DNA of 64,000 bases from Rhynchopus sp. YZ270_cl-10 (taxonomy: Eukaryota > Euglenozoa > Diplonemea > Diplonemida > Diplonemidae). Every line of letters starts with the position of its first letter. Position 1 is the first letter of the stretch. The notes under the pieces are model-generated. The model was not told the DNA's origin and ran no database searches. It was given only the letters and a program-made list of their open reading frames with translations. Location: positions 1,479,921 to 1,543,920 of the forward strand of contig OZ037867.1 of NCBI GenBank assembly GCA_964035575.1, written 5' to 3'. Made by a program: the position numbers and the translations under genes. Below are positions 34,600 to 60,029 of the stretch, in pieces.

Positions 34600-35255
34600 C
34601 CTCTCGTAGCTCAATTGGTAGAGCGCTCGACTGTAGAATACTCGGTTATCGAGCGGTCGCTGGTTTTTTTTTTTTTTAATTTTTTTTTTTTTTTTTTTTT
34701 CCCGGTGGTCCGGGTTTTGAGTGTTTTTAGTGTTTTCTTTTTCCCAGAGAGGGTTGGGGGGAGGTGATCAGGGGTCTCAGGGACCTCGAATCAAAACAGA
34801 GGTGTCTTGACAAAAAAGGCTCAAAGGTGCAGAGGTCTGTTTAGCCTTACAGCAAATCCTTTAAAAAAGGAAAGGCCTTGAGACATAACAAAAGAGGGTT
34901 TTGAGGCAGACGGAGGGGCTCAACAAATAAGACCTTCCAGGACCCAAGTTTTTTCTAGCCCACAGCAACATAGGTAGAAAGAACATGAGAGGAAGAAGGG
35001 ACTTACCTGCATGTGAGATGAAGAGGGAAATAGGCAGAGGAGAAGGAGGGGCTTTTTCACTTCAGGGGTTCTTGATGGTCAGGGCTGGGTTTCTTCTAGG
35101 TGGAGATTCCCATGGGTAGACCAAAAAGAGAGAGTAGGTTGAGGTGAAAAAGTTTGGGACAATAAAGACAATAAAGACAATGTCAATTGGTAGAGCGCTC
35201 GACTGTAGAATACTCGGTTATCGAGCGGTCGCTGGTTCGATTCCGGCCGAGAGGA
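34600..35255 (+). pseudogene. tRNA-Tyr(GTA) with intron, split by an insertion
   Basis: The left piece (34600-34665) has the acceptor 5' strand, D arm and anticodon arm with GTA and an intron of 11 nt 3' of the anticodon, but lacks the T arm. The right piece (35183-35255) repeats the D arm onward and adds the T arm (TGGTTCGATTCCGG) and acceptor 3' strand, but lacks the first 11 bases. The shared 54 bp (34611-34664 and 35183-35236) are identical. Neither half can fold into a tRNA. No other Tyr gene is visible in the window. Confidence 0.9.
34665..35182 (-). mobile_element. 518-bp poly(A) retrosequence inserted in tRNA-Tyr
   Basis: Flanked by 54-bp direct duplications of the tRNA-Tyr gene. On the minus strand it ends in a long A run (34665-34700 region, with a TT interruption), so it entered by target-primed reverse transcription. 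Its minus-strand start, TTGTCTTTATTGTCTTTATT, resembles a phrase in the poly(A)-ended arms at 1-1960. No ORF longer than trivial. It may be a truncated or non-autonomous element. Confidence 0.8.
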
Positions 35256-35332
35256 TTTTTTTCATTTTCGTGTTCCAGGTTATTTTCTTCAAACAGATGA
35301 CTGCCTAAAAACAAAGAACGGTGAGAATTACA

Positions 35333-35414
35333 GCAGTCGTATCCAAGTGGTTACGGAGGTGGACTAGAAATCCATTGGGCTCTGCCCGCGCAGGTTCAAG
35401 TCCTGCCGACTGCG
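35333..35414 (+). tRNA. tRNA-Ser(AGA)
   Basis: Type II tRNA with long variable arm. Anticodon loop CTAGAAA, D arm with TATCCAAGTGG and T arm GCAGGTTCAAGTCCTGC; the acceptor GCAGTCG pairs with CGACTGC. One of four Ser tRNAs in the island. Confidence 0.95.
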
Positions 35415-35512
35415 ATTCATTTTTTGTTCACGAATTTTCGTGCATTTTCGTCGTTTCTGTGCTCATTTTAGACCATTTTGATGCGCGAAATTAAATCAGA
35501 GTGAAGATTGTA

Positions 35513-35584
35513 TCCTCGGTAGTATAGAGGTCAGTATTTCCGCCTGTCACGCGGAAGACCCGGGTTCAATTCCCGGCCGGGGAA
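35513..35584 (+). tRNA. tRNA-Asp(GTC), copy 1
   Basis: Loop CTGTCAC, T arm CCGGGTTCAATTCCCGG, acceptor TCCTCGG with CCGGGGA. Asp(GTC) is the only intact isoacceptor present twice in the main cluster (second at 41778, opposite strand). Confidence 0.96.
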
Positions 35585-35646
35585 TTCTTTTTTGTACAGG
35601 GCTCACATTCATTGTTTCGTTTCTTTTCTGATGAAAATCAAATCAG

Positions 35647-35719
35647 GCCCCGTTGGCGCAATGGATAGCGCGTTGGACTTCGAATCCAAAGGTTGCGGGT
35701 TCGAGTCCCGCACGGGGTT
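35647..35719 (+). tRNA. tRNA-Arg(TCG)
   Basis: Loop CTTCGAA with T33; T arm GCGGGTTCGAGTCCCGC; acceptor GCCCCGT with ACGGGGT. D arm contains GGCGCAATGG. Confidence 0.95.
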
Positions 35720-35989
35720 AACTTTTTGAACATTGTTTTTTTGAACTTTTTTGAAAACACAAAAAAGTGAGGTTGGTGTCAAGTGAAATCACAGTGGAAC
35801 AACAGATACAAATTTGGGTCCAGTGGGAAGGGGTCTCCCAGGAATTTTGGATTTTTTGGCAGTCAACCCATCCAGAAGAACCTTAAAAAATCTTGGGAAA
35901 AACTTGAAAACTGGAAATTCTTTGAAAAGCTGACATTTCAGAATTTTTTTCTGAACATGAAAATTTTGCTTCCTCCTAAAAAAAAGAAC

Positions 35990-36061
35990 TGCACTTACCG
36001 GGAGTCGAACCCGGGCCGCTCGCTTGGAAGGCGAGAATACTAACCGTTATACCATAAGTGC
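35990..36061 (-). tRNA. tRNA-Gly(TCC)
   Basis: Minus strand; loop CTTCCAA, T arm CCGGGTTCGACTCCCGG, acceptor GCACTTA with TAAGTGC. Standard cloverleaf. Confidence 0.95.
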
Positions 36062-36150
36062 TGTTACTTTCATGCAAAGTGTTTTCTTTGTGGGGGGCAA
36101 TTTCAAAATAAAAAAAATTTGAAATTGTTCAAATTGCCCAAAAAAAGAAG

Positions 36151-36222
36151 CAACCGTGGCAGGACTCGAACCTGCAACCGCCTGATCCGTGGTCAGGCGC
36201 TCTTCCATTGAGCCACACGGTC
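36151..36222 (-). tRNA. tRNA-Arg(ACG), C at position 33
   Basis: Minus strand; anticodon stem CCTGA/TCAGG encloses loop CCACGGA, so the anticodon is ACG preceded by C rather than the near-universal U33. Acceptor GACCGTG pairs with CACGGTT (one G-T). D arm GCTC/GAGC and T arm GCAGG/CCTGC are intact. Confidence 0.88.
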
Positions 36223-36310
36223 CATGTCTTTAGGCAATAGTATTTTTTATGTGGCCTGCATATTTTTGGAGTTGGAAAAAATGAAAATGGTTGATTGTAC
36301 AGCTAAAAAA

Positions 36311-36381
36311 GCGGTTACCGAGAATTGAACTCGGGTCTCCCGTGCCACAAACGGGTGTTCTAACCACTAAACCATAACCGC
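36311..36381 (-). tRNA. tRNA-His(GTG)
   Basis: Minus strand; stem CCCGT/ACGGG, loop TTGTGGC, T arm CCGAGTTCAATTCTCGG, acceptor GCGGTTA with TAACCGC. Confidence 0.95.
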
Positions 36382-36497
36382 TTGAATATTCCCACTTATT
36401 GGGATCTCAGAAAGGGTTTTATTTCCCGGGATATTGTGAAATATTTTTCAATCATGCAACGAGCGGCAACTCGAGCACAATTTCGACTAATATCGTA

Positions 36498-36568
36498 GCG
36501 TAATTGGTCTAGTGGTAGAATGGCCCCCCGCCACGGGGTCGGCCCGGGTTCGATTCCCGGATTACGCA
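36498..36568 (+). tRNA. tRNA-Gly(GCC), C at position 33
   Basis: Stem GCCCC/GGGGT encloses loop CCGCCAC: anticodon GCC with C32 and C33. T arm CCGGGTTCGATTCCCGG, acceptor GCGTAAT with ATTACGC. Confidence 0.92.
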
Positions 36569-36739
36569 CTCTCTTTTTGCGATTGACAAAAGCAAAACAA
36601 TATGGTTTCGGACAGTTTCAGGTCAGTCACAAACTCATTCAAAACGAAAAAGTGGAAATGATATTTACTCTTTCTTGTGTAAGGATTCTTAGTGGAGAAA
36701 GAAATTTTTTGTCTGATGCCGGTTTTTGCTCGACATAGT

Positions 36740-37065
36740 AAGTCAGTTCAGTCACAACTTCCATCACAATCGAAAAAAAATTTGACTCATATGTTTATAA
36801 ACCCATGCTGACTTACATGTTTATTTGTTCACAAAAATCCCAGTTCATAAACATGTAAGTCAGTATGGCCGCTCTGGTGGCCGCATGTTTTTGGGTTAAC
36901 TTACGTGTTTATGAAAAACCTGACTTACATGTTTATTTGTTCACAAAATTCCCTGGGTTAATAACCATGTAAGTCAGGTTTTTCATAACCATGTAAGTCA
37001 GGTTGGGACTACAACATGTTCATAAACCCAACCTGACTTACATGTATATTTCTTCACAAAATTCC
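36740..37065. repeat. Inverted/direct copies of CTGACTTACATGTTTATG
   Basis: At least eight copies of CTGACTTACATGTTTATG or its complement CATAAACATGTAAGTCAG, several arranged as hairpins (for example around 36805-36865 and 36910-36985). The same word recurs at 60033-60120, just beyond the second arm of the large inverted repeat. Confidence 0.8.
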
Positions 37066-37104
37066 CAAGATATGGCCGGTGCACTGGTCAGAGACATCAC
37101 GTTT

Positions 37105-37305
37105 GCGGGCCAACCCCCCTGTGCGCCCGATTAGCTTACCCCCCTGTGCGCCCGATTAGGAATACCCCCCTGTGCGCCCGATTAGGAATACCCCCCTGTG
37201 CGCCCGATTAGGAATACCCCTGTGCGCCCGATTAGGAATACCCCTGTGCGCCCGATTAGCTTACCCCCCTGTGCGCCCGATTAGGGATCCCCCTGTGCGC
37301 CCACC
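37105..37305 (+). repeat. CCCCTGTGCGCCCGATTAG minisatellite
   Basis: Eight tandem copies of CCCCTGTGCGCCCGATTAG with spacers GAATA, CTTAC or GGAT. A related GGGCGCACAG motif appears in reverse orientation three times at 40735-40805. Confidence 0.9.
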
Positions 37306-37662
37306 TACCTAGTCACTGTGACCAGGTGCCTGGTCAGATCTGACCAGGTACCCTTACTAATATGCCTTACCAATATGGCCAGGGGTGTGGTATGTTGGGT
37401 GCACAAGGGAGTTTCACGATGGGGGAATACATGCTGGACATGTGCCTTATCTTATGCACAGGTGCAATGGATGGCATAGCAAACCCGTATACCCATTGCG
37501 TGTGTGGGTTTGCTGGCCTAGGACTGTATGGAAAGTGCACGGGTCCACCGCAGTGCAACCAGTCATGCACCAAGGGCAACTGGCTGTTTTATCAATTTTT
37601 GAACTTTTTTTTAGACATTGCCAAACCTTCTCCATAATCTGAGATCTTGGGAAACAAGATAA

Positions 37663-37735
37663 GCTCGCGTGGCGCAATGGAAGCGCGTCGGTTCCCGACG
37701 CCGGAGGTTGCGGGTTCGATCCCCGCCGCGAGTAC
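37663..37735 (+). tRNA. tRNA-Arg(CCG), C at position 33
   Basis: Acceptor GCTCGCG/CGCGAGT, D arm GCGC/GCGC, stem TCGGT/GCCGG (two G-T pairs), loop TCCCGAC giving anticodon CCG after C33, T arm GCGGGTTCGATCCCCGC. The alternative pairing GCGTCGG/CCGACGC would leave a loop of three and is rejected. Confidence 0.85.
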
Positions 37736-37871
37736 TTTTTATTCATTCCAAAATATTTTTGGATTTCCTTCTTCTCAGAGCTTTCTTGTCACAAAACTTT
37801 GCCAAATTGAAAATTCAGAAATGCGAAAATATCAAAAAACAGCTCCGAAATTTGAAAGCAATTAAAAAGGA

Positions 37872-37943
37872 TTCCCCCTCCGGGGTTTGAACCCGGGTCG
37901 CCTGGGTGAAAGCCAGGTATACTAACCACTGTACTAAAGGGGA
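37872..37943 (-). tRNA. tRNA-Glu(TTC)
   Basis: Minus strand; loop CTTTCAC, T arm CCGGGTTCAAACCCCGG, acceptor TCCCCTT with AGGGGGA. Closely similar D arm to the Asp and Gly genes. Confidence 0.95.
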
Positions 37944-38040
37944 GGTGATACTTAGGCACAATCCAAAAAGGGTACTTTTGTGCAAGGAACATGGAATTTC
38001 AAACGAAAAAATAAATAAAAATGAAAATCCAAAAAGACAA

Positions 38041-38112
38041 GGGCTCGGCGGGGAATTGAACCCCGGACCTCTCGCACCCTAAGCGAGAATCATGCCACTA
38101 GACCACCGAGCC
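38041..38112 (-). tRNA. tRNA-Pro(AGG)
   Basis: Minus strand; stem CTCGC/GCGAG, loop TTAGGGT, T arm CGGGGTTCAATTCCCCG, acceptor GGCTCGG with CCGAGCC. Sister of Pro(TGG) at 41414. Confidence 0.95.
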
Positions 38113-38226
38113 ACGAATTCTCTCGCATTCTCTTCGTACCAAGGCCATAAGTTTCCATCATTCCTTGTGTGTGTTTTCGTTTTGAATAAGGTCCCCATGT
38201 AAATGCTGTCTTCGCTAACAATCAGA

Positions 38227-38299
38227 TCCTCCTTGGCGCAGTCGGTAGCGCGTCAGGCTGTTAACCTGCAGGTCGTTGGTTCGAACCCAACAGGAGGAG
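38227..38299 (+). tRNA. tRNA-Asn(GTT)
   Basis: Loop CTGTTAA, T arm GTTGGTTCGAACCCAAC, acceptor TCCTCCT with AGGAGGA. Confidence 0.96.
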
Positions 38300-38553
38300 A
38301 TTTTTCATTTTTTTGAGTTTTTGACTCTATTTTGTATTTTGAGCTAAAAACCCACATTGTGTGTCATCTTGATGTTGAAACTATTTTTCAGGATTTCCAA
38401 GGTTGTCTCACCAAAAAAACCAATCATCTTTGAATGCTGTCCTAACTTGGAGATTCTTGACCTGAAGATAAAACAGATTTTGTCAGGTTTTTTTTGAGCT
38501 TGGAAATGTTCAGAAAAGAATGACAAAAAGGTGTCAACGCAATGTATAAAAAA

Positions 38554-38635
38554 CGCGAACGGCAAGGTTCGAACTTGCGCATGCAGAGCACACTCGCTTA
38601 GCAGGCGAGCCCCGTAACCACTTGGGTACGTCCGC
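38554..38635 (-). tRNA. tRNA-Ser(GCT)
   Basis: Minus strand; type II with long variable arm, stem CTCGC/GCGAG, loop CTGCTAA, T arm GCAAGTTCGAACCTTGC, acceptor GCGGACG with CGTTCGC. Confidence 0.95.
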
Positions 38636-38855
38636 TTAATTACCTGTCAGTACTTAGGACGAAGCTTGTACTTTGTTTAACGACACGTTAGTGATCACTT
38701 GTGTGGTCACCAAAAATCATCACAATTGTGACCACCAAAAAAATTTTTTGGGCACGATTTCGCGCGATGGTGAGCTCATTGCACGACGGCCGACACACCA
38801 TGTTTTCCAACAAATTAAAAAAATTCCAGAAAAATTCAGGTATCAATACAAAAAG

Positions 38856-38928
38856 CACCTCCCGCGGGGCTCGAACCCGCGACCACAAGGTTAAGGGCCT
38901 TGCGCTCTACCGACTGAGCTAGGGAGGC
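38856..38928 (-). tRNA. tRNA-Lys(CTT), C at position 33
   Basis: Minus strand; stem CAAGG/CCTTG, loop CCCTTAA: anticodon CTT preceded by C33, whereas Lys(TTT) at 39356 has T33. T arm GCGGGTTCGAGCCCCGC, acceptor GCCTCCC with GGGAGGT. Confidence 0.93.
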
Positions 38929-39010
38929 TCATATTAACTTAAACCAAAGAATCAAGATGGGGTACTTGTGTTTCCATCGTTGTTGCGTGAACAAAAGGAT
39001 CCGGATTATC

Positions 39011-39082
39011 TCTCCTATGGTGTAGTGGTTAGCACCCTGGACTTTGAATCCAGTAGCCGCGGTTCAAACCCGCGTGGGAGAA
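39011..39082 (+). tRNA. tRNA-Gln(TTG)
   Basis: Stem CTGGA/TCCAG, loop CTTTGAA, T arm GCGGTTCAAACCCGC, acceptor TCTCCTA with TGGGAGA. Confidence 0.94.
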
Positions 39083-39196
39083 CTTTTCTTTTTCCAAGTG
39101 TTTTCAATATTTTTTGGAGCTTTGTCACACACATCTTCAATCTCTGCATTTGATGACAAAACATAGATCACAGAAATCAAACGAAAAGGTAAAGAA

Positions 39197-39278
39197 CGCT
39201 GACGGCAGGGTTCGAACCTGCGCGGGCAGAGCCCAGTGGATTTCAAGTCCACCTCCGTAACCACTTGGATACGTCAGC
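39197..39278 (-). tRNA. tRNA-Ser(TGA)
   Basis: Minus strand; type II, stem GTGGA/TCCAC, loop CTTGAAA, T arm GCAGGTTCGAACCCTGC, acceptor GCTGACG with CGTCAGC. Body nearly the same as Ser(AGA) and Ser(CGA). Confidence 0.95.
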
Positions 39279-39355
39279 ATAGTTGAGGAAGTACAACGCC
39301 CCAGATCCTGAAAATGAGCGCAAAAAAGAGAATCCAATTGATCCAAAAAAGTAGG

Positions 39356-39427
39356 CACCCGCCGTGGGGATCGAACCCACGACCATTGGATTAAAAGTCC
39401 AACGCTCTACCGCTGAGCTAGGCGGGC
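39356..39427 (-). tRNA. tRNA-Lys(TTT)
   Basis: Minus strand; stem TTGGA/TCCAA, loop CTTTTAA, T arm GTGGGTTCGATCCCCAC, acceptor GCCCGCC with GGCGGGT. Confidence 0.96.
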
Positions 39428-39540
39428 ATTCGTTTTAAAGGAAAGAGTCAATTTCAAGGCTTGTTGCGTTCTTGAAAAAAACTGACAAAAAGACGAACAG
39501 AAAGTGCCCCAAGTACGTCTCCTTGAGGGACATTTATCAG

Positions 39541-39612
39541 GGGCGTTTAGCTCAGTGGTAGAGCGCCCGTTCTGCATACGGGAGGCCGAGGGTTCGAACC
39601 CCTCAATGTCCA
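39541..39612 (+). tRNA. tRNA-Ala(TGC), C at position 33
   Basis: Acceptor GGGCGTT/AATGTCC, including the G3-T70 wobble pair that identifies Ala tRNAs. Stem CCCGT/ACGGG, loop TCTGCAT (C33, anticodon TGC), T arm GAGGGTTCGAACCCCTC. Confidence 0.94.
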
Positions 39613-39649
39613 TTTTTTTGCCTTATTTTGTTGATTATTTTTTGGTTGG

Positions 39650-40320
39650 GCCAGTTAACACACAAAAATATGAACTGGCACCATTGTGCAGTGCCTGCGA
39701 TGAGGATGTGTGTGATGGTCCAATTGGCGAGTCTGATGTCATAATGTGTTCAGGAACATCCAAATGACCCATTTTCCCAACGTTTTCACATTTTTGAGCA
39801 TTTTGCTATTACGCAATAGTGGTACAATAGGCATTTTACTGGGTCATTTTAACCAACTCTATCAGGACACTTCTGATGCTCCAATTGGCGATTCTGACCT
39901 CATAATGGCTTCATGAGCAGCCGAATAACCCGTTTTCCAAATATTTTCACATTTTTGAACATTTTGCCATTCGTGGAATGGTGGCACAAAAGTCATTTTA
40001 CTGGGTCATTTTCGCCAACTCGATCAGGGCACTTCTGGTGCTCCAATTTGCGGTTCTGACCTCATAATGGATTCAAGAGCACCCAAATAACCCATTTTCC
40101 CAACGTTTTCACATTTTAGACTATTTTTGCTATTGCGGAATGGCAGTACAATAGGCAGTTTACTGGGTCATTTTCGCCAACTCGATCAGGATACTTCTGA
40201 TGCTCTAATCACATCGTTTAACCTCATAATGCATTCAGGAGCACCCAAATAACCCATTTTCCCAATGTTTTCGCATTTTTGACCATTTTGCTGTTGCAGA
40301 GTATCAGTAAGATGAGGTCA
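39650..40320 (-). repeat. Satellite monomers, about 162 bp, between tRNA genes
   Basis: Four diverged copies on the minus strand of the satellite found at 45.25-47.05 kb. Each carries GATGCTCCAATT near one end, a CCTCATAATG core and CCCATTTTCCCAACGTTTTC. They fill the gap between Ala(TGC) and Ile(AAT). No gene seen. Confidence 0.85.
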
Positions 40321-40397
40321 TGCAAATACAGTTTTGTGCACAACAGAAAAAAAATAGTGTGTACCCCAGGTTGGCGATTCCTTTCGTCATTATTGTC

Positions 40398-40470
40398 GGT
40401 CGTGTAGCTCAGTCGGTAGAGCATTGGTCTAATAAGCCAACGGTCCCAGGTTCGAGCCCTGTCACGACCA
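40398..40470 (+). tRNA. tRNA-Ile(AAT)
   Basis: Stem TTGGT/GCCAA, loop CTAATAA, T arm CAGGTTCGAGCCCTG, acceptor GGTCGTG with CACGACC. Confidence 0.95.
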
Positions 40471-40548
40471 ATACTTTTTCTACTACTTTGACTTTGACCT
40501 GTTCAAAAAATGTTGGCCGTGTAAAAAATATGCATACCCTAAAACAAG

Positions 40549-40555
40549 GCCTCTT

Positions 40556-40604
<49 letters not shown>

Positions 40605-40621
40605 AATCCCAGGTGGAGGCA
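40549..40621 (+). tRNA. tRNA-Phe(GAA)
   Basis: Stem CAGAC-type, loop CTGAAGA, T arm CTGGTTCAATCCCAG, acceptor GCCTCTT with TGGAGGC. Confidence 0.95.
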
Positions 40622-41216
40622 CTTCTCTTTTTTCCCCTCAACTCTAATAACAATTTTCAATGTGCGCTGTGCTACTACATCCCAATTTTTTGGACGAAAA
40701 TTTTTTGGTATGTTGGGTGCACAGCGCAGACCCCGATATGGGCGCACAGAACACCCCCCCATTGTGGGCGCACAGAACAGGCCCTCCGTTGTGGGCGCAC
40801 AGCTCACTGTGTGCTGTGCAAAGTTTCAGCATATGGCTTCTGGCAACAAAAACTTAAAAAAAATTTTGGCCGAAAATTATTTTTTGGCCTGCAATCAGGT
40901 TGAGCTGAGACGCTATGTAACCTGTCAGTCTGTTTCATGTTCCCACTGATCAAAGTTCGTTCGAGATGGAAAGGACTGAAAAGGAAGCACATGCGGAAAT
41001 GTTAAGGAATTCCCACCCATTTCCACATGTGCTTCCGGCAACAAAAACTGATCGCTCCGGGATTTGATTTTGGTACCATTTTTCACCAAATCCAAAAAAA
41101 TAGGCAGAGTAGCACAGCCGCAAACGTTAGCATTATGACACGTGTTTGCGGATGTGCGCTCACCCCAAAAAAAATGGACAACACAAGGCCAAAAAACAAA
41201 CACACAAAAAGAAGTG
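40622..41216. other. Gene-free spacer with GGGCGCACAG repeats
   Basis: Three copies of GGGCGCACAG (40735-40805) and AT-rich sequence. Overlapping small ORFs on both strands are not supported. Confidence 0.6.
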
Positions 41217-41290
41217 TACACCTATCCGGGTTTGAACCGGAGACCTCCTCGGTGTTAACGAGGCGTCATAACCAACTAGACCATAGGTGC
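41217..41290 (-). tRNA. tRNA-Val(AAC)
   Basis: Minus strand; stem CCTCG/CGAGG, loop TTAACAC, T arm CCGGTTCAAACCCGG, acceptor GCACCTA with TAGGTGT. Confidence 0.94.
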
Positions 41291-41413
41291 TGACATTTAT
41301 ATGGTTCATAGAAACGAGATGGTGTGTGCATTCACCACCCAGAACTCAAAACTGTGTCAAAATAAAAAAAAAATTTTGGACAGAAGAAAATGGGAATATG
41401 GGTACAAAACGAA

Positions 41414-41485
41414 GGCTTAGTGGTCTAGTGGCATGATTCTCGCTTTGGGTGCGAGAGGTCCAGGGTTCGATTCCCTGCTGAGCCC
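41414..41485 (+). tRNA. tRNA-Pro(TGG)
   Basis: Stem CTCGC/GCGAG, loop TTTGGGT, T arm CAGGGTTCGATTCCCTG, acceptor GGCTTAG with CTGAGCC. Confidence 0.95.
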
Positions 41486-41593
41486 CTCTTTTTTTCGAGA
41501 TTTTGTGTCACAAATTTTTTGTCAGAAAAAACAAATTGTGAAAAAAACTGATCCCTTGAAAAATTGATTCTGGACAATAGAAGGAAAAAAGTG

Positions 41594-41675
41594 TGACAGG
41601 AGTGGGGTTTGAACCCACGCCTCCGAAGAGAAAGGAACTTGAGTCCTCCGCCTTAGACCTCTCGGCCATCCTGCC
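41594..41675 (-). tRNA. tRNA-Leu(CAA)
   Basis: Minus strand; type II with variable arm, stem GAGGA/TCCTT, loop CTCAAGT, T arm GTGGGTTCAAACCCCAC, acceptor GGCAGGA with TCCTGTC. Confidence 0.94.
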
Positions 41676-41777
41676 TTGCCAACAGATTTATATTAGAAAT
41701 GAAATGAGAACGATGAGAAAGGACAACCAAAACGGAGCAAAAGGAAAAACAGAAGAAAACACAACACATAAAAAGAA

Positions 41778-41849
41778 TTCCCCGGCCGGGAATTGAACCC
41801 GGGTCTTCCGCGTGACAGGCGGAAATACTGACCTCTATACTACCGAGGA
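41778..41849 (-). tRNA. tRNA-Asp(GTC), copy 2
   Basis: Minus strand; the body appears identical to copy 1 at 35513, with loop CTGTCAC. The flanks differ. Confidence 0.96.
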
Positions 41850-41937
41850 TACAATGAAGCCTGTTTTTAAAAAGAATGCGTCCAGAGAAAGTCTTCAATC
41901 GCACCGGATCTGAAAAATAAAAAACAAAGAAAAGAAT

Positions 41938-42010
41938 TACCCCATGTGGGACTCGAACCCACAACCTTTGGATTAGAAGTCCAACGCGCTATCCATTGCG
42001 CCAATGGGGC
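41938..42010 (-). tRNA. tRNA-Arg(TCT)
   Basis: Minus strand; stem TTGGA/TCCAA, loop CTTCTAA, T arm GTGGGTTCGAGTCCCAC, acceptor GCCCCAT with ATGGGGT. Confidence 0.96.
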
Positions 42011-42102
42011 TTGTTTCATATTCTTTTCTCGTTTTAAGGAAGTGTCCCTTCATGGTCAACAACACCTGTAAAAAATTGTGAAGGAAATTCAAAAATGAAA
42101 AG

Positions 42103-42175
42103 TACAACTAGCTGGGATTGAACCAGCGATCTTCCGCGTGTAAGGCGGACGTCCTAACCACTAGACGATAGCTGC
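42103..42175 (-). tRNA. tRNA-Val(TAC)
   Basis: Minus strand; stem TCCGC/GCGGA, loop CTTACAC, T arm GCTGGTTCAATCCCAGC, acceptor GCAGCTA with TAGTTGT (two G-T pairs). Confidence 0.93.
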
Positions 42176-42276
42176 CCAAACTTAGTGAGATGTTGGCAAG
42201 GGTCTGACCAACTTTTTTTTGGTGTTCAAAAAATTTTTTTCAAGTCAAAAAAATGGGTTCACTGAAAAAGGTTTTC

Positions 42277-52371: not shown

Positions 52372-52483
52372 AACCAACGATTTCTAAAGCTACAGTTTCT
52401 GTACTTCATTGGTATGGAAGCATGAAGATTATTCTTCTCACACAACTTTGTCAAAACATGGCCAGTTTCGAAAGAGACTGGCC
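52372..52483 (+). ncRNA. Spliced-leader RNA gene 3
   Basis: Exon and donor as in gene 1, hairpin GGCCAGTTTC/GAGACTGGCC, T-run end. The upstream element is GATTCCCAGA at 52325-52334 (A instead of C at position 2), 38 bp before the start. A satellite remnant lies just upstream. Confidence 0.95.
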
Positions 52484-52569
52484 TTTTTTACGTTAACACG
52501 ATCGTCTTGTGCACAAGAAGCAAAAAAACCCACACAACAACAGCAGAAGTTTAGAACCACATTCAGACC

Positions 52570-52603
52570 CTGACCCAACTCCAACAAGGGGCCCCTGTCT
52601 TGT
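52570..52603 (+). promoter_or_regulatory. 34-bp upstream element of U6 copy 1
   Basis: CTGACCCAACTCCAACAAGG ... CCCTGTCTTGT, first base 58 bp before the U6 start. A TATATA lies at 52619-52624, only a few bases before the RNA. Confidence 0.85.
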
Positions 52604-52627
52604 CAACCACCTTGTGCATATATACTG

Positions 52628-52731
52628 GACCCCAGAAATGGGACATCCGTTAAAATTGGATCGATACAGAGAAGATTAGCATGGTCCCTGCGCAAGGATG
52701 ACACACATTAATCGAGAAAGTATCAACTTTT
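52628..52731 (+). ncRNA. U6 snRNA, copy 1
   Basis: Contains the invariant ACAGAGAAGATTAGCATGG and CCCTGCGCAAGGATGACAC, a 5' stem-loop (CCCAGAAATGGG) like plant and trypanosome U6, and a 3' T run (52728-52736). U6 forms the catalytic core of the spliceosome together with U2. The 34-bp upstream element and T terminator suggest Pol III transcription. About 104 nt. Confidence 0.96.
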
Positions 52732-52950
52732 TTTTTGTCCCCCGGATCACACGTATTTTTTACACTGGTGTCTTCTTCATGCTTCCCAGACCAACACATA
52801 TGTGCAGACATACCCATCACCCACAGGTGGCAAGTGGCAGGCTGCAGTGACCCATTGAAATATTGGTTTCAAAAAACGACCATATGGTTTATGCTACTGG
52901 CATGCTTCCCTGAGCATATACATGTCGAAAGCTGTGTAGAGAAAAAGAGC

Positions 52951-53061
52951 AACCAACGATTTCTAAAGCTACAGTTTCTGTACTTCATTGGTATGGAAGC
53001 ATGAAGATTATACTTCACACACAACTTTGTCAAACATGGCCAGCCTCGAAAGAGACTGGCC
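52951..53061 (+). ncRNA. Spliced-leader RNA gene 4
   Basis: Exon and donor as in gene 1; the hairpin has one mismatch (GGCCAGCCTC). Upstream element GCTTCCCTGA at 52904-52913, the same variant as at U1. Confidence 0.95.
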
Positions 53062-53384
53062 TTTTTTACGTTAGCACGATTGTCTTTGTGCACAAGAAGC
53101 AAACCCAAAAACACACCCAATTCACACCTGACCTAATGCACAAGTGCTTACTGCACCCCATTTTTATATCGCCTGCAAAACCATATTTGTGACACTTGTT
53201 CCCCTTCAGAAGCCACTGTTGACTCTGTCGAATATCCTTCTGTAGGATCACACTTAAGGATATTTTTATGTAGAACCTTCACAGTGACCAAGATGTCAGG
53301 TACGAAAAAGCAACCGTATTATAGACATTGGCAGAAGGCTTCCCAGAACAAGTGGGTACCTAGAACATTGTAGAGAAAAAGGGC

Positions 53385-53496
53385 AACCAACGATTTCTAA
53401 AGCTACAGTTTCTGTACTTCATTGGTATGGAAGCATGAAGATTATATTCTTCACACAACTTTGTCAAAACATGGCCAGTTTCGAAAGAGACTGGCC
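53385..53496 (+). ncRNA. Spliced-leader RNA gene 5
   Basis: Tandem-duplication partner of gene 2 (1434 bp apart); exon, donor and hairpin intact; upstream GCTTCCCAGA at 53338-53347. Confidence 0.95.
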
Positions 53497-53803
53497 TTTT
53501 TTACGTTAACATCACCTTGTGCAAACCCAAAAAACACACATGATTCCCATGTTCTTCGAATATTTTGGTGATTAGGATATGTGTAATGCTCAGATTAAAT
53601 TGTACGACCACGCAATTGACTCAAATGAGCCCAAATATCCCGTATTCCCAAGATTTTTGGACTTTCGAGCACATTGGGCATCCTTAGGTATGTTTATAAG
53701 CCACTCTACGGCTATGTTAGAAAAAAAACCCACCATAATAATGATACATATGGCATGATTCCCAGAACATGTTGGCACTTAGAACATTGTAGAGAAAAAG
53801 GGC

Positions 53804-53915
53804 AACCAACGATTTCTAAAGCTACAGTTTCTGTACTTCATTGGTATGGAAGCATGAAGATTATTCTTCTCACACAACTTTGTCAAAACATGGCCAGTTT
53901 CGAAAGAGACTGGCC
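53804..53915 (+). ncRNA. Spliced-leader RNA gene 6
   Basis: Duplication partner of gene 3 (1432 bp apart); exon, donor and hairpin intact; upstream GATTCCCAGA at 53757-53766. Confidence 0.95.
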
Positions 53916-54001
53916 TTTTTTACGTTAACACGATCGTCTTGTGCACAAGAAGCAAAAAAACCCACACAACAACAGCAGAAGTTTAGAACCACATTCAGAC
54001 C

Positions 54002-54035
54002 CTGACCCAACTCCAACAAGGGGCCCCTGTCTTGT
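54002..54035 (+). promoter_or_regulatory. 34-bp upstream element of U6 copy 2
   Basis: Same sequence and same 58-bp spacing as at U6 copy 1. Confidence 0.85.
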
Positions 54036-54059
54036 CAACCACCTTGTGCATATATACTG

Positions 54060-54163
54060 GACCCCAGAAATGGGACATCCGTTAAAATTGGATCGATACA
54101 GAGAAGATTAGCATGGTCCCTGCGCAAGGATGACACGCATTAATCGAGAAAGTATCAACTTTT
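54060..54163 (+). ncRNA. U6 snRNA, copy 2
   Basis: Duplication partner of copy 1; differs in the 3' part at GACACGCATT (GACACACATT in copy 1). Copy 2 has the form seen in most eukaryotes. The T run follows. Confidence 0.96.
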
Positions 54164-54382
54164 TTTTTGTCCCCCGGATCACACGTATTTTTTACACTGG
54201 TGTCTTCTTCATGCTTCCCAGACCAACACATGTGTGCAGACATACCCATCACCCACAGGTGGCAAGTGGCAGGCTGCAGTAACCCATTGAAATATTGGTT
54301 TCAAAAAACGACCATATGCTTTATGCTACTGGCATGCTTCCCTGAGCATATACATGTCGAAAGCTGTGTAGAGAAAAAGAGC

Positions 54383-54494
54383 AACCAACGATTTCTAAAG
54401 CTACAGTTTCTGTACTTCATTGGTATGGAAGCATGAAGATTACTCTTCTCACACAACTTTGTCAAAACATGGCCGGTTTCGAAAGAGACTGGCC
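54383..54494 (+). ncRNA. Spliced-leader RNA gene 7
   Basis: Duplication partner of gene 4; hairpin variant GGCCGGTTTC; upstream GCTTCCCTGA at 54336-54345, 38 bp before the start. Confidence 0.95.
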
Positions 54495-54590
54495 TTTTTT
54501 ACGTTAGCATGATTGTCTTTGTGTGTCTTTGTGCAAAGCAAAAAAAAAACACACACAAGAAGTGAGGATCTTCAAAACCACGTTTTTGAC

Positions 54591-54624
54591 CTGACCCACC
54601 TCCAACTAGACAACCCTGTCTTGT
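54591..54624 (+). promoter_or_regulatory. 34-bp upstream element of SRP RNA
   Basis: CTGACCCACCTCCAACTAGA ... CCCTGTCTTGT, first base 57 bp before the SRP RNA start. Confidence 0.85.
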
Positions 54625-54647
54625 ATTCCTACAATATGGTATCTATT

Positions 54648-54960
54648 GAGCCGGGATGTGTTGGCTGCATCCTGAAACCCCTAGCTTCTGGGGGGGCAAG
54701 CTTCTCCAGAACTGGGCACTCTTTGAGGTGGACCAAAGGCACCTTCAACTTCTGTGTTGATGTGTTGTCCGTGTTAGTCTACTGTCCTGTTTGCGGCCTT
54801 GGTGTAAACCAGGGCAACAATCAGAGTGAAATGGGGTGAACCGGGCCAGGCTGGTCTCACAGAGCAGCTCATAACTCCTGCAGTGGACAGTTCAAGGATC
54901 GCAGCACAGAGCAGAGTGAGGGTGTTTCCAACTCAATGGCTTGAACTGGAGAAGCGTTTC
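54648..54960 (+). ncRNA. Signal recognition particle RNA (7SL)
   Basis: RNA scaffold of SRP, which targets secretory proteins to the ER. The 5' Alu-type start is GAGCCGGGATGTG. The central GGGGTGAACCGGGCCAGGCT and GCAGCTCATAACTCC-like stretches match the conserved helix 8 region (GGGGTGAACC and GGAGCAGGTCAAAACTCC in human). AAGCTTCTCCAG near the 5' end pairs with CTGGAGAAGCGTT at the 3' end, closing helix 5. A T run follows at 54957-54966. Length about 313 nt. Confidence 0.88.
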
Positions 54961-55124
54961 TTTTTTACATTTTTCCATGTGAACATTGTTTCCACATCAC
55001 CATACACATGTGTTGTTGATACACCCCACCACGTTGCCCAGACCATTCCTACCCACATTATTCACCACAAGTGGCATGTTTACCAGTACATGTTGGTGCT
55101 TAGAGCAATGTTAAGAAAAAGGGC

Positions 55125-55237
55125 AACCAACGATTTCTAAAGCTACAGTTTCTGTACTTCATTGGTATGGAAGCATGAAGATTATATTCTTCTCACACAA
55201 CTTTGTCAAACATGGCCAGCCTCGAAAGAGACTGGCC
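55125..55237 (+). ncRNA. Spliced-leader RNA gene 8
   Basis: Exon and GTATGG donor intact, hairpin GGCCAGCCTC/GAGACTGGCC with one mismatch. The upstream element is degenerate (GTTTACCAGT at 55078-55087) and the AGAGAAAAAG before the start reads AAGAAAAAG, so this copy may be weaker. Confidence 0.92.
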
Positions 55238-55345: not shown

Positions 55346-55368
55346 TTTCCCATACTCTCCCTATGTTT

Positions 55369-55692
55369 GGGTGCTAAGTTAGTGTGCTACTTCGAAACCA
55401 AACAACTCGTTCAGCAACAGCTAAAACTTGAAAAGACCTTTCTTATCAGAAAATTCTTTACAATTTTTATGATGTGTCCTGCTGTGGGCCTGATATGGCC
55501 CAAGGCGGAACCACTTTCATATGATGTAAATCCCGTACGTTCGTACAGAATATTACCCATGATGATTATTCTTACATTAGCGTGTAACACTAATTCTGAC
55601 TGCGTTCTATTTCACACTTCAAATATTAGAACTGGATGTGGGGCTGCCAGTTTACTGGTGGTCCCGATCCAGCACACAACGCAAGCACCCTT
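55369..55692 (+). ncRNA. Unidentified Pol III-type RNA X, copy b (diverged)
   Basis: About 324 nt. The first 45 nt and last 100 nt are nearly the same as copies a and c, while the middle is diverged. Some changes keep pairing: the stem GTACA/TGTAC of copies a and c is GTACG/CGTAC here, and GGGCCCGATGTGGCC becomes GGGCCTGATATGGCC. The 3' end GCAAGCACCC is followed by T5. Same promoter element and spacing. A second functional paralogue is likelier than a pseudogene. Confidence 0.7.
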
Positions 55693-55810
55693 TTTCATAT
55701 TACCCCACCCAGTACCCCCCCTGTGTCTGTGTTGTTGCCTAAAAAAGCATCACCTTTTACAGGCTTCCTTGTGGGGAGTGTTCGGTCAAGTGATAGTGAT
55801 GAAGAAGGAC

Positions 55811-55885: not shown

Positions 55886-55977
55886 CCCTTACCGGTAACC
55901 ACTGTGTATGTATGGTATGTATGGTATGTATGATATGTTGCCTTTGTGTGTTTGTTTTTGTTTTGTTAAAAAAGAGG

Positions 55978-56163
55978 GTATGCCACTCCTGGATGTTGTG
56001 CAGCTCCAGGGCAACATGTGTGAACGGACCAGGTTGCCCTGGCGACCCGTCACCCCAATGAGAAATTGCGTTAATATCATCAGTGCACAAGGCACTGTAT
56101 CAGATATTAAGCTGATAAGAACAGATAATACACTTGATCTTAGCCAAAAGGCCGAGAAGGTAT
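55978..56163 (-). ncRNA. U2 snRNA
   Basis: Minus strand; CTTCTCGGCCTTTTGGCTAA, AGATCAAGTGTATTATCTG and TTCTTATCAGCTTAATATCT match the strongly conserved 5' half of U2, which pairs with the intron branch site and with U6. The branch-recognition word is GTATTA instead of the usual GTAGTA. The 3' half can form stem-loops III/IV (GCCCTGGAGCTG...CCAGGAGTGGC). About 186 nt. GCTTCCCTGT lies 39 bp upstream. Confidence 0.94.
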
Positions 56164-56312: not shown

Positions 56313-56452
56313 AGGCCGCCGAAGCAGCTACACAAATTGCCAATGTGGCAACGCCGAAGCGGCCCATGGCGGGAATTGGGTAGTTTTCAACCAGCAATCT
56401 CTCCACAGCGTCCCTATTTGGTCATTGCTTATGGAATTATCCCGAGCGCAAG
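56313..56452 (-). ncRNA. U4 snRNA
   Basis: Minus strand; contains TTGCGC near the start, AAGCAATGACCAAATAGGGA, GATTGCTGGTTGAAAACT (the U4 central domain has TTGCTAATTGAAAACT), CCCAATTCCCGCC, CATTGGCAATTTGTG (Sm-site region) and a 3' hairpin GCTGC-TTCG-GCGGC. U4 chaperones U6 in the tri-snRNP. About 140 nt. Upstream GCTTCCCTGT at 56494-56503. Confidence 0.88.
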
Positions 56453-56493
56453 AATACCTCCTTTTCTCCCAGTCGTGTCACAAAGCTATGTCA

Positions 56494-56616: not shown

Positions 56617-56815
56617 AAGACTGTACTCTACACAGGATCTGTTTTTGAGTGCATTCGTGTTGAAGATTGTTTTCTTCGGCACAAGACCAAAGCTGGATGA
56701 TGACATAGGTTGGGCATGTGCAGCATGAGCACTTGCGATGATTGTCACATACTTCTTGTATTGTTTTGTCTCTCCCCTGTATGGCGCAGGGAAGAGTACC
56801 AGGCACAGCCCTTCC
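56617..56815 (+). ncRNA. U3 snoRNA candidate
   Basis: U3 guides early cleavage of pre-rRNA. The start AAGACTGTACTCTACACAGG and following GGATCTGTT resemble U3 box A (plant: ACAGGATCTGTT). GATGATGAC (C'-like) and GCGATGATTG (C-like) follow at suitable distances, and CTCTCCCCTG...CAGGGAAGAG can form a 3' stem. A clear box D was not found. The upstream element at the usual spacing supports the start. End uncertain. Confidence 0.65.
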
Positions 56816-56928
56816 ACTTACAGCTTGTTTTTAAGAAAAACCTCAAAAAAGGCTTCACATTACTTTTTTCACCTTCAAGGACATCTTGATCAATCAAGAA
56901 GTTACCACACTATCCTCGCTCTCAACAT

Positions 56929-56938: not shown

Positions 56939-56979
56939 GTAGCAAAGTGCATACAGCAATAGAACAAAACAGAGCCATA

Positions 56980-57092
56980 TCACGGTTCTTGCCCATATCG
57001 AACTCATCTTTCGCCTTTTACTAAAGATGACCGTGGGTAAGAGCCACTAAGTGAAAGCATAATTTTTGAAGGGGCCTTTGTGTCTCATCTGT
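56980..57092 (+). ncRNA. U5 snRNA
   Basis: Contains the invariant loop I in TCTTTCGCCTTTTACTAAAG, which aligns exons in the spliceosome. It is enclosed by pairing of CGGTTCTTGCCCA with TGGGTAAGAGCC. Sm-like site ATAATTTTTGAAG follows. The 3' stem-loop boundary is uncertain. Confidence 0.92.
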
Positions 57093-57125: not shown

Positions 57126-57169
57126 AGGTGTTGGAGTTTCGCATGTTGTTAAACTCAGCTAGAGGTTAC

Positions 57170-57306
57170 ATACCTTACTGGTGTCTGACCTGATCAACAA
57201 GGGCGTCGACACACCAGTGGCCCTTGCATTGCTGGCACTAGCTTCGGCTGGCTTGCACAGTGAAATTTTTGACAGCGGCGGTGCTGTGCTTTGCACAAAC
57301 CCGCCT
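57170..57306 (+). ncRNA. U1 snRNA candidate with unusual 5' end
   Basis: The first bases (ATACCTTACTGG) resemble but do not equal the usual ATACTTACCTGG. A stem CTGGTGT/ACACCAG encloses a loop with CTGATCAACAAGG, similar to the U1-70K-binding GATCACGAAGG. CTAGC-TTCG-GCTGG forms another hairpin, then AAATTTTTGACAG (Sm-like), then a 3' hairpin GGCGG...CCCGCC with an inner TGTGC/GCACA and T5. The upstream element at standard spacing supports a real gene. U1 recognises 5' splice sites. Identity inferred from the loop and position. Confidence 0.6.
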
Positions 57307-57594: not shown

Positions 57595-57713
57595 GGATTC
57601 GGCCATACTCTGGTGAATACACCTCATCCCGCCTGATTTGAGAAGTTAAGCACCAGCAGGCCTGGATAGTACTGGCGTGGGTGACCAGCTGGGAAGTCCG
57701 GGTGCTTGAATCC
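57595..57713 (+). rRNA. 5S rRNA, copy 3
   Basis: 119 nt, GGATTCGGCCATAC to GTGCTTGAATCC, followed by TTTTTAC. Internal control regions as in copy 1. 110 bp upstream of RNA X copy c. Confidence 0.95.
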
Positions 57714-57766
57714 TTTTTACTTTTCTTCTGTTGTGTTAGGTGTGTGGTTTTGAGGATGTCCAGACC

Positions 57767-57800: not shown

Positions 57801-57823
57801 ATTCCGATGTTTGCTGTATGTTT

Positions 57824-58155
57824 GGGTGCTAAGTTAGTGTGCTACTTCGAAACCAAACAACTCGTTCAGCAACAACAAAAACTTGAAAAAGACATTTCTT
57901 CTGAGAAAATTCTTTTACAATTTTGTGTGAAGACCGGTCATGTTTGCGGGCCCGATGTGGCCTGCGACGGACTACTCTCATATGATAGTAAATCCCGTAC
58001 AATCTGTACAGAATATTACCATGACGATATTATTCTTACATTCGTGTAAACTAATCTTCCGATTGCGTTCTATTTCACACTTCAAATATTAGAACTGGAT
58101 GTGGGGCTGCCAGTTTACTGGTGGTCCCGATCCAGCACACAACGCAAGCACCCAA
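57824..58155 (+). ncRNA. Unidentified Pol III-type RNA X, copy c
   Basis: Plus-strand copy of 44345-44676 in the other arm. 5' GGGTGC pairs with 3' GCACCC; a hairpin CCAGTTTACTGG lies within a GGAT/ATCC stem near the 3' end; a T9 run follows. See copy a for the limits of identification. Confidence 0.7.
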
Positions 58156-58265
58156 TTTTTTTTTGCCCCTGCCCGTCCACAGGCCATGTGTGCACCAGTG
58201 ACCGCAAACCCACAAACCCCAAGTTAGGTTGTAAAGGTCTGAAAGGAAAGCTCTGAAAAAAACCT

Positions 58266-58337
58266 AGGCCGCTGTGGGGATTGAACCCACGACCCCATCA
58301 TTACGGATGATGTGCTCTACCACTGAGCTAAACAGCC
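58266..58337 (-). tRNA. tRNA-Thr(CGT), second copy
   Basis: Inverted-repeat copy of 44168-44239; loop TCCGTAA with C33; intact cloverleaf. Confidence 0.94.
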
Positions 58338-58414
58338 ACATTTTAGGGAGCAAGGTGTGAAAGCTCTGAGAACCAATTTACACAGGAGAAACAAAACAGG
58401 GGAAAAAAAAACTG

Positions 58415-58486
58415 TGGACCCTGAGAGGTTCGAACTCTCGGCCTCCCGTATGCGGAACGGGCGCTCTTCCACTGAGCTAAGAGCCC
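58415..58486 (-). tRNA. tRNA-Ala(CGC), second copy
   Basis: Inverted-repeat copy of 44019-44090; loop TCCGCAT with C33; G3-T70 present. Confidence 0.94.
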
Positions 58487-58564
58487 CACAATTATGATGC
58501 TTCTTTAAAACAACAAGCTTTGGGCCGAAATAGGCTTTTAAGTGATCACACAACGAAGAAAAAG

Positions 58565-58646
58565 TGACGAGGGTGAGGTTTGAACTCACGCCCCCGAAGA
58601 GACTACGACCTGAACGTAGCGCCTTAGACCACTCGGCCACCTCGCC
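58565..58646 (-). tRNA. tRNA-Leu(CAG), second copy
   Basis: Inverted-repeat copy of 43859-43940; loop TTCAGGT; intact. Confidence 0.94.
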
Positions 58647-58767
58647 TTACTAGGCTCCTTCGTTAAAAATTTTTTCACCATCGCGGAGGTATGAAGGAAA
58701 TTTTTGATGCGTGCTCTGTACATTTCAAAAGACCCCCTTCAAAGAAAAGAAGATGGAGAGAAAGCAT

Positions 58768-58840
58768 GGCGCTATAGCTCAGTGGTTAGAGCGCTCGCCC
58801 AGTAAGCGAGAGGTCGAGGGTTCGATCCCCTCTAGTGCCT
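58768..58840 (+). tRNA. tRNA-Thr(AGT), second copy
   Basis: Inverted-repeat copy of 43665-43737; loop CCAGTAA with C33; intact. Confidence 0.94.
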
Positions 58841-58924
58841 TGTTTTTTGTTCGCTGTCCTATTTCTGGTTCGTTGTTAGGTCACAAACAACCTGTTCACA
58901 TGTTGTCCATCATGACTCAGTATT

Positions 58925-59043
58925 GGATTCGGCCATACTCTGGTGAATACACCTCATCCCGCCTGATTTGAGAAGTTAAGCACCAGCAGGCCTGGATAGT
59001 ACTGGCGTGGGTGACCAGCTGGGAAGTCCGGGTGCTTGAATCC
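58925..59043 (+). rRNA. 5S rRNA, copy 4
   Basis: 119 nt, identical in appearance to copy 3, followed by TTTTTAC and a T8 run. Confidence 0.95.
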
Positions 59044-59059
59044 TTTTTACTTTTTTTTA

Positions 59060-59705
59060 CTGAAGCAGAAAGTTGTTCTGGATTGCTCACACAGGATCAA
59101 AAACGCGAAAACGTTGGGAATATGTGTTATTTGGGTGCTCCCGAACCCATTATGAGGTCGGACGATTTGATTGGAGCATCAGAAGTGCCCTAATTGAGGT
59201 GGCCAAAATGACCGTTTTTACCTGCTATTCCGCAACAGCCCAACTGGTCAAAAATGCGAAAACGTTGGGAAAACGGGTTATTTGGATGCTCCTGAAGCCA
59301 TCATGAGGTCGGAACCGCAAATTGGAGCATCACACATGTCCTAATCACTTACTCCCAGTGAAACACGGTACACATGGAATTTTCCGATTTTCCACCGGAT
59401 ACTCCGCAATAGCAAGATCGTCCAAAATGTGAAAACGTTGGGATAATGGGTCATTCGGATGCTCCTGAATTCATTATGAGGTTGTAACCGCAAATTAGAG
59501 CATCAGAAGTGCCCTAATCGAGTTCGCGAAAATGACCCAGCAAAATGTCATTTTCACCTCTATTCTGCAATAGCCAGATCGTCAAAAATGGGAAACTAAC
59601 GGGAAAATGGGATGTTTGGATGCTCCTGAATCCATTATGAAGTCGTAACCGCAAATTGGAGCATCACACATCCCTAATCAGCCCTAATCACTTACTCCCA
59701 GTGAA
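59060..59705 (+). repeat. Satellite monomers in the right inverted-repeat arm
   Basis: Reverse complement of 42835-43430: four diverged monomers with AAAACGTTGGGAA and GGAGCATCA words. Confidence 0.85.
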
Positions 59706-59769
59706 AATTTATTTGGGCTATTTGAGATGTATGGAATGTACAGGGTTCCCCCTACACAGCAAAAAGACA

Positions 59770-59823
59770 CGCATTCCCAATGCATTTCGAGTGCACCTCC
59801 GTAACCACTTGGATACGTCCGCT
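59770..59823 (-). pseudogene. tRNA-Ser(CGA) pseudogene
   Basis: The 5' half (acceptor strand, D arm, anticodon loop CTCGAAA) is intact, but after GCATTGGG the variable arm, T arm and acceptor 3' strand are replaced by AATGC before the shared downstream flank. Confidence 0.9.
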
Positions 59824-59902
59824 ACTGTTCCTTTGCAACTTCTGGAGGAGTCATGAAACGAGCAGGAGGAATGAACATGATTCACTGAACAAAAAAAGGC
59901 TT

Positions 59903-59975
59903 TGCTCCCGGCGGGGTTTGAACCCGCGATCCCAGGCTCATAAGACCTGTGCCTTAACCACTAGGCCACGAGAGC
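59903..59975 (-). tRNA. tRNA-Ile(TAT), second copy
   Basis: Inverted-repeat copy of 42497-42569; loop CTTATGA; intact. Confidence 0.93.
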
Positions 59976-60001
59976 GTCGAGCCCTTTTATCCCTTGATAA
60001 G

Positions 60002-60027
60002 GCGACCGTGGTCTAGTGGCATGATGG
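60002..60027 (+). pseudogene. tRNA-Gly(CCC) 5' fragment
   Basis: GCGACCGTGGTCTAGTGGCA and a few more bases of the Gly(CCC) gene, then unrelated sequence. It marks the edge of the inverted repeat. Confidence 0.9.
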
Positions 60028-60029
60028 AG

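Follow-up and report, generated by a model that had tools for sequence, protein, structure and literature searches.

A 64,000-nucleotide stretch of the Rhynchopus sp. YZ270_cl-10 genome (positions 1479921-1543920 of contig C35, its right edge coinciding with the contig end; hereafter the window) contains the outermost unit, cut short at its left edge, of a tandem array of RNA-gene cassettes; a cassette measures about 28 kb. We propose, with a probability of roughly 85%, that this cassette is arrayed near many chromosome ends. Its full content is 48 tRNA genes together with genes for 5S rRNA, spliced leader (SL) RNA, U6, signal recognition particle (SRP) RNA, U2, U4 and U5 and, probably, for U1, U3 and a structured RNA here called RNA X. 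The proposal draws on the gene content and copy number of the units, their position near contig ends and their orientation bias, on identical genes set in variable spacers and on two classes of promoter element.

Gene content of the window and of a complete unit

tRNA genes were called with ARAGORN; other RNAs were searched with Rfam at gathering thresholds and then in E-value mode. ARAGORN found 38 tRNA genes in the window, 33 of which lie at 35333-44239 and carry 32 distinct anticodons, Asp-GTC alone being doubled. The other five (58266-59975) lie inside an inverted repeat and their anticodons repeat those of the first group. Gathering-threshold matches were obtained for four 5S genes, U2, U4, U5, two U6 genes and SRP RNA, with E-values ranging from 9.7e-12 (U4) to 1e-32 (SRP) that exclude chance matches for these predicted genes, and the 40-nt SL exon occurs in eight exact copies (51517-55125). 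A preliminary description of the window, made without database searches, had listed 33 tRNA genes with 32 anticodons, four 5S, eight SL and two U6 genes and U2, U4, U5 and SRP RNA, and had called the tRNA set almost non-redundant outside the inverted repeat; ARAGORN, Rfam and the exact SL exons bear out both statements. Its U1-like gene and U3 candidate also appear in E-value mode, but with scores under the Rfam gathering cut-offs: the U1 gene (57166-57305, plus strand) reaches 42.7 bits (E = 8.4e-8) against a gathering score of 69.5 for RF00003, and the U3 gene (56617-56826, plus strand) 35.1 bits (E = 4.5e-6) against 80 for RF01847, which is the nearest model but a plant one and hence a distant yardstick. 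Despite these scores, both carry the promoter element of the other small nuclear RNA (snRNA) genes, and we therefore take them as probable U1 and U3 genes. The usual U1 start is ATACTTACCTG; the probable U1 RNA begins ATACCTTACTGG (57166-57180), a start that would go with 5' splice sites of the GTAAGG type.

In 90 contiguous kilobases of contig C22 (1400000-1489999), units stand head to tail with the gene order of the window. A full unit is about 28 kb in size and holds more than 60 RNA genes, among them 48 tRNA genes whose 44 anticodons cover 20 amino acids; in the C22 units the SL, U6, SRP, U2, U4, U3, U5, U1, 5S and RNA X genes are arranged as in the window. One of the four C22 tRNA blocks directly follows the preceding block, with no snRNA part between them. 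The full unit has 15 more tRNA genes upstream of the set kept in the window, which lacks them because its left edge is cut: sequence with reverse-transcriptase frames abuts the elongator tRNA-Met gene there, and a separate insert splits the tRNA-Tyr gene. The full unit carries a nearly complete set of small-RNA genes, which the window, having lost these 15 genes, understates. Under simple wobble rules, TTA is the sole sense codon left unread by one full C22 unit; a strict pattern for a tRNA-Leu(TAA) gene gave no match genome-wide, although a diverged gene could escape it. Diplonema papillatum is likewise reported, in the passage cited, to be without tRNA-Leu(UAA) (PMC10161547).

Copy number

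The assembly searched comprises 152.4 Mb in 126 contigs. Pattern searches permitting up to three mismatches found 82 copies of the tRNA-Trp gene on 34 contigs and 86 copies of the initiator tRNA-Met gene on 35 contigs, all 82 and all 86 with zero mismatches. U1, SRP and SL gave 105, 120 and 672 copies, respectively, and zero mismatches were seen throughout the 100 matches listed for each. In a tRNA family search of the genome the Lys-TTT gene had the same top score in at least 63 places, and U2 was found in at least 46 places, 45 sharing one score and one lying 1.1 bits lower. Two 1.5-kb pieces of the locus recur in at least 40 places each with 97-100% identity. The spacing of Trp genes (same-strand neighbours less than 60 kb apart, n = 42) has a median of 28,286 bases and a range of 12,100-53,512. 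Taking Trp as a proxy for the 15-gene half of the tRNA set and initiator Met as a proxy for the other 33 genes, one arrives at roughly 4,000 tRNA genes in the genome, a figure of arithmetic and not a count. The preliminary description had spoken of a single locus and had named the recurrence of most of these genes at several other loci as grounds for rejecting its view; the genome-wide counts place the same genes in dozens of loci and refute the word 'single'.

Position near contig ends

Loci were defined as clustered Trp, initiator-Met, U1 and SRP sites on contigs longer than 1 Mb, with SL-only sites excluded. The distance to a contig end is at most 50 kb for 43 of the 51 such loci, at most 100 kb for 45 and at most 200 kb for 47; in 5000 trials of random placement the number within 100 kb averaged 6.9 and never exceeded 18, compared with the 45 observed. 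The snRNA side faces outward in 38 of the 47 near-end loci, inward in eight and is mixed in one (p = 9e-6). Contig C123 (174,296 bases) holds two oppositely oriented arrays that run up against each other, the strand changing between 94067 and 124634; like the inverted repeat of the window, this arrangement is a sign of fold-back or end-to-end exchange.

The window closes with an octanucleotide array, (CCGCAAAC)n, from 60648 to the end of the contig at 64000. Elsewhere, 27 of the 41 left ends checked (contigs longer than 1 Mb) begin in (GCGGGTTT)n and nine of the 15 right ends checked terminate in (AAACCCGC)n, with none in the complement on either side; the C-rich strand is directed outward, opposite to ordinary telomeres. 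The octanucleotide may be a satellite at which the assembly breaks, as suggested by an internal array in C22 and by the ends of C22 and C101 in (AGCTAAGG)n, or, less probably, a telomeric repeat of unusual kind, or one next to the telomere, that belongs to the array system. Two other repeats were considered as telomeres and rejected. No (TTAGGG)4 occurs anywhere in the assembly, and a control pattern (the TTAGGG repeat reversed) gave 43 matches, so another six-base repeat exists. (TATGGGG)n gave 211 overlapping exact matches; the 100 listed all fall in three contigs, at the left end of C9, 44.5 kb in from that of C20 and in C91, and we therefore regard it as a local repeat.

Identical genes in drifting spacers

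The tRNA block of the window (33 tRNA genes and one 5S gene) was aligned with two C22 units. All 2586 gene positions are identical in each of the two units, and the spacers show 121 mismatches in 6374 positions and 236 gap columns against the first unit, and 108 in 6375 with 237 gap columns against the second. Spacers thus differ by about 2% between units; at this rate about 49 differences would be expected in the genes, versus none seen. Identical genes in drifting spacers point to selection or homogenisation, a pattern that would fit a function of the genes through their RNAs.

Promoter elements

An element like TGCTTCCCTG begins 48-51 nt before the SL, U1, U2, U3, U4 and U5 genes, as measured from Rfam or exon starts, with 0-1 mismatches for the U1-U5 and U3 genes and 0-3 across the eight SL genes; at U1 this snRNA-type element has one mismatch and the distance seen at U2, U4 and U5. 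A second element, GACCCACCTCCAAC, stands at -56/-57 of both U6 genes and SRP with 0-1 mismatch and is also found upstream of all three RNA X copies. Neither upstream element was found at the 5S genes. Across the 64-kb window the first motif has 15 sites at up to one mismatch, eight of them at the SL, U1-U5 and U3 genes, and the second has seven sites at up to two mismatches, of which six belong to U6, SRP or X. The assignment of SL and snRNA genes to RNA polymerases II and III (Pol II and Pol III) is established for kinetoplastids, and from the gene classes we infer that the two elements are Pol II and Pol III promoters, respectively. The mixture of Pol II-type (SL, U1-U5, U3) and Pol III-type (tRNA, 5S, U6, SRP) genes to which the preliminary description drew attention does exist within one physical unit. 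Two more TGCTTCCC-type elements, at 52780 and 54212 (plus strand), lie in the SL/U6 cluster; no known gene stands where their usual spacing would place one, and they possibly mark unrecognised snRNA-type genes.

RNA X

The additional Pol III-type RNA of the preliminary description is present in three window copies of about 335 nt with a mean column identity of 91%: 44340-44678 (minus strand), with its Pol III-type element at 44718 (minus strand), and 55367-55705 and 57822-58156 (both plus strand), recognised by the upstream element, copy alignment and fold. The ends of all three copies are inferred. At least two have a terminal T-run to go with the Pol III-type upstream element. The RNA has a closed terminal stem and folds far better than its shuffled counterparts (z = -6.3, 0 of 100 shuffles). 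Covariation is weak, with a compensatory change in two of 96 predicted pairs and several pairs broken in one copy. No Rfam family matched up to E = 1. Telomerase RNA was also considered, but the octamer-like GTTTGCGGG of one copy is absent from the other two and was taken as chance.

Layout of the window

The left edge of the array is a unit remnant (34435-34665, plus strand; 97% match to the C22 unit) comprising the end of the elongator tRNA-Met gene and the 5' part of the Tyr gene; window sequence left of 34435 has no match to the C22 unit. Much of that left part is occupied by three long open reading frames that encode reverse transcriptase domains (PF00078), at 7713-13007 (plus strand), 18712-25371 and 28241-33886 (both minus strand); an OTU-like cysteine protease domain exceeds the Pfam cut-off in one of these frames and falls under it in another. 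The tRNA block (35183-44239, both strands) holds the rest of the Tyr gene and the 33 tRNA genes, in the order of the C22 units according to ARAGORN and Rfam, with a 5S gene at 43461-43580 (minus strand, 89.3 bits). Mobile elements sit inside array tRNA genes, as in the elongator Met gene at the window edge (34435). The insert in the window Tyr gene (34665-35183) has a duplication of about 55 bp around it, inserts of about 2 kb with 8-bp duplications interrupt Asp and Val genes at C22:1454873 and C22:1463565, and in a C29 unit (L016:2095) the Asp gene is broken at the position seen in C22.

A second 5S gene (44786-44905, minus strand) follows RNA X copy 1, and the satellite filler of the unit, composed of 172/344-nt and 401-nt tandem repeats, extends from 45202 to 47921. 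The first SL RNA gene (51517-51625, plus strand, end approximate) was recognised by its exon, a 207-nt repeat family and the promoter element; the eight exons start at 51517, 51951, 52372, 52951, 53385, 53804, 54383 and 55125 (plus strand). Interspersed are U6 genes at 52628-52733 (92.6 bits) and 54060-54165 (93.7 bits) and the SRP (7SL) RNA gene at 54650-54957 (129.3 bits), all on the plus strand. Beyond RNA X copy 2 come U2 (55973-56163, 141.6 bits) and U4 (56316-56455, 63.3 bits) on the minus strand, the probable U3 gene with its promoter element at -49, U5 (56978-57088, plus strand, 85.8 bits), the probable U1 gene and a 5S gene (57595-57714, plus strand). RNA X copy 3 is followed by an inverted partial copy (58249-60028) of 42444-44256, with five tRNA genes and one 5S gene, identified by ARAGORN, Rfam and repeat analysis; the arms of the inverted repeat (42736-44256 and 58249-59769) are 100% complementary.

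Proposed mechanism and alternative explanations

Each RNA gene in the cassette would be transcribed separately; own promoters and genes on both strands argue against the unit being one transcript. Pol II would act from the TGCTTCCC element about 50 nt upstream of SL, U1, U2, U3, U4 and U5, and Pol III from the upstream GACCCACCTCCAAC element at U6, SRP and X and from internal boxes in tRNA and 5S genes. The units would be amplified and homogenised, as in ribosomal DNA, by unequal exchange and by conversion, both within a chromosome end and from one end to another, and copy number would set the joint dose of the whole RNA set, giving a high and balanced dosage. The arrays would be the main, perhaps the only, source of these RNAs in the cell. 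We consider it doubtful, if conceivable, that matters go further still, with nearly all noncoding RNA genes outside the large rRNA operon moved into one co-amplified, subtelomere-building cassette with no dispersed backup, translation, splicing, trans-splicing and protein export being co-dosed by array length and exchange between ends keeping the copies identical.

A number of observations weigh against the proposal of a cassette arrayed near chromosome ends. Six of the 51 loci lie more than 100 kb from an end, in C1, C2, C3, C9, C52 and C79, the first three being the three largest contigs; mid-contig arrays may be chromosome fusions or misjoins. Units vary, since an initiator-Met gene lies within 15 kb of only 66 of the 82 Trp genes, leaving 16 without one. 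Sites with no other marker (Trp, initiator Met or U1) within 30 kb number three for Trp, six for initiator Met and 17 among the 100 listed for U1, and these sites without partners indicate that part-units and single pieces exist. The exclusion of dispersed copies covers Trp, initiator-Met and U1-like sequences within three mismatches. No known gene follows seven of the 15 first-motif sites in the window, and the promoter motif was read off the very genes that it describes, so the evidence lies in the fixed distance across unrelated RNA families and not in the match alone.

In eukaryotes, tRNA genes mostly lie scattered or in small clusters of one family. The cassette might be an added, amplified set, with ordinary dispersed tRNA and snRNA genes doing much of the work. 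Diverged or other tRNA genes could have escaped the tRNA family search, which scored 63 of 7713 first-look candidates, and three Trp sites are solitary. Every Trp or initiator-Met site within three mismatches is, however, an identical copy, most of them paired in units, whereas a separate second set should have diverged to some extent; we judge this explanation unlikely. We give no better odds to the arrays being mainly subtelomeric or telomere-like blocks that carry the RNA genes as passengers or boundary elements, an idea that is compatible with our own. The near-end position and orientation bias speak for it, as do the lack of (TTAGGG)4 in the assembly and the octanucleotide repeat into which most checked contig ends run. 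Against this, no array is listed for many of the chromosome ends, the genes are letter-perfect while the spacers drift, as would fit RNA function, and contig ends may fall short of true chromosome ends.

An assembly artefact or a graveyard of dead copies is highly improbable. Some short contigs consist mostly of units, contigs end in repeats and the mid-contig arrays of the three largest contigs could be misjoins, but spacers, inserts and truncations differ from place to place, so this is not one sequence pasted repeatedly, and the genes are without decay. The organiser of a nuclear body at a single locus, as first envisaged, is the least credible explanation: the mixture of polymerase classes is genuine, but with dozens of copies over dozens of contigs any such body would have to gather many loci.

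Comparison with known systems

Published systems are compared here as they are described in the cited passages of each paper, and on that basis the relatives of the cassette are far smaller. In Entamoeba histolytica there are 25 different small array units with 1-5 tRNA genes (PMC2652664), and the largest unit of the genus has 2364 bp with six tRNA genes and one 5S gene (PMC2652664, PMC6175992). In both systems tRNA genes, in part accompanied by 5S, form long tandem arrays that are homogeneous, but here one 28-kb unit combines 48 tRNA genes with snRNA, SL and SRP RNA genes. A location at chromosome ends has been proposed for Entamoeba as an untested idea (PMC2652664, PMC6175992), whereas the near-end position is seen in the present assembly. 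Head-to-tail, near-identical multi-tRNA units are found in both; the many small units (1-6 tRNA genes) with intergenic short tandem repeats are not found here, where such repeats occur only in places. The arrays thus work like the Entamoeba type but are not of it. A survey of tRNA gene organisation treats Entamoeba as the first case and has large tRNA clusters arising independently elsewhere (PMC2888827).

Among euglenozoans, D. papillatum has an SL RNA-5S-U2 tandem repeat in which 151 of 163 U2 copies are identical, and its 211 tRNA genes occur in at most ten identical copies; the three-gene unit is called exceptional and apparently absent from other diplonemids (PMC10161547). SL RNA, 5S and U2 likewise share one tandem unit with near-identical copies in Rhynchopus, but with about a dozen RNA kinds and 48 tRNA genes in place of three gene kinds; SL and 5S are linked in tandem as in euglenozoan SL-5S repeats, without the short two- or three-gene unit. 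The assembly is 152 Mb, versus about 280 Mb reported for D. papillatum. Leishmania tarentolae has one 2.7-kbp cluster of U3, ten tRNAs, U1 and 5S, and Euglena shows U3-U5, U3-tRNA and SL-5S linkage (PMC2784804). Pol II-type small RNA genes stand beside Pol III-type genes there as they do here, and U3 adjoins U5; the Leishmania cluster is, however, not a tandem complete set, and U3 and U5 are convergent in Euglena but run in the same direction here. For Trypanosoma brucei, scattered tRNA genes are described, along with snRNA genes that lie close to them (PMC11666725).

The Sc2.0 yeast tRNA neochromosome (PMC11747415) is man-made DNA dedicated to tRNA genes, to which the present arrays are a natural, repeated counterpart that adds snRNA, SL, SRP and 5S genes. 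No published unit of this composition was found in the Creative Commons-licensed PMC literature, subscription journals and preprints being outside its scope. The SL entry 'Euglenozoa 14' of a published comparison is presumably that of Diplonema, a name that the relevant passage of the source does not give. The 40-nt exon found here differs from this entry by one inserted base and a few substitutions (PMC3795323).

A single tandem unit carrying a near-complete decoding set together with the RNAs of splicing, trans-splicing and secretion makes the balance of RNA gene dosage testable. The same holds for the concerted evolution that keeps dozens of unlinked arrays letter-identical, for the possibility, guessed at for Entamoeba, that RNA gene arrays help to build chromosome ends, and for the way in which interleaved Pol II and Pol III promoters are distinguished.

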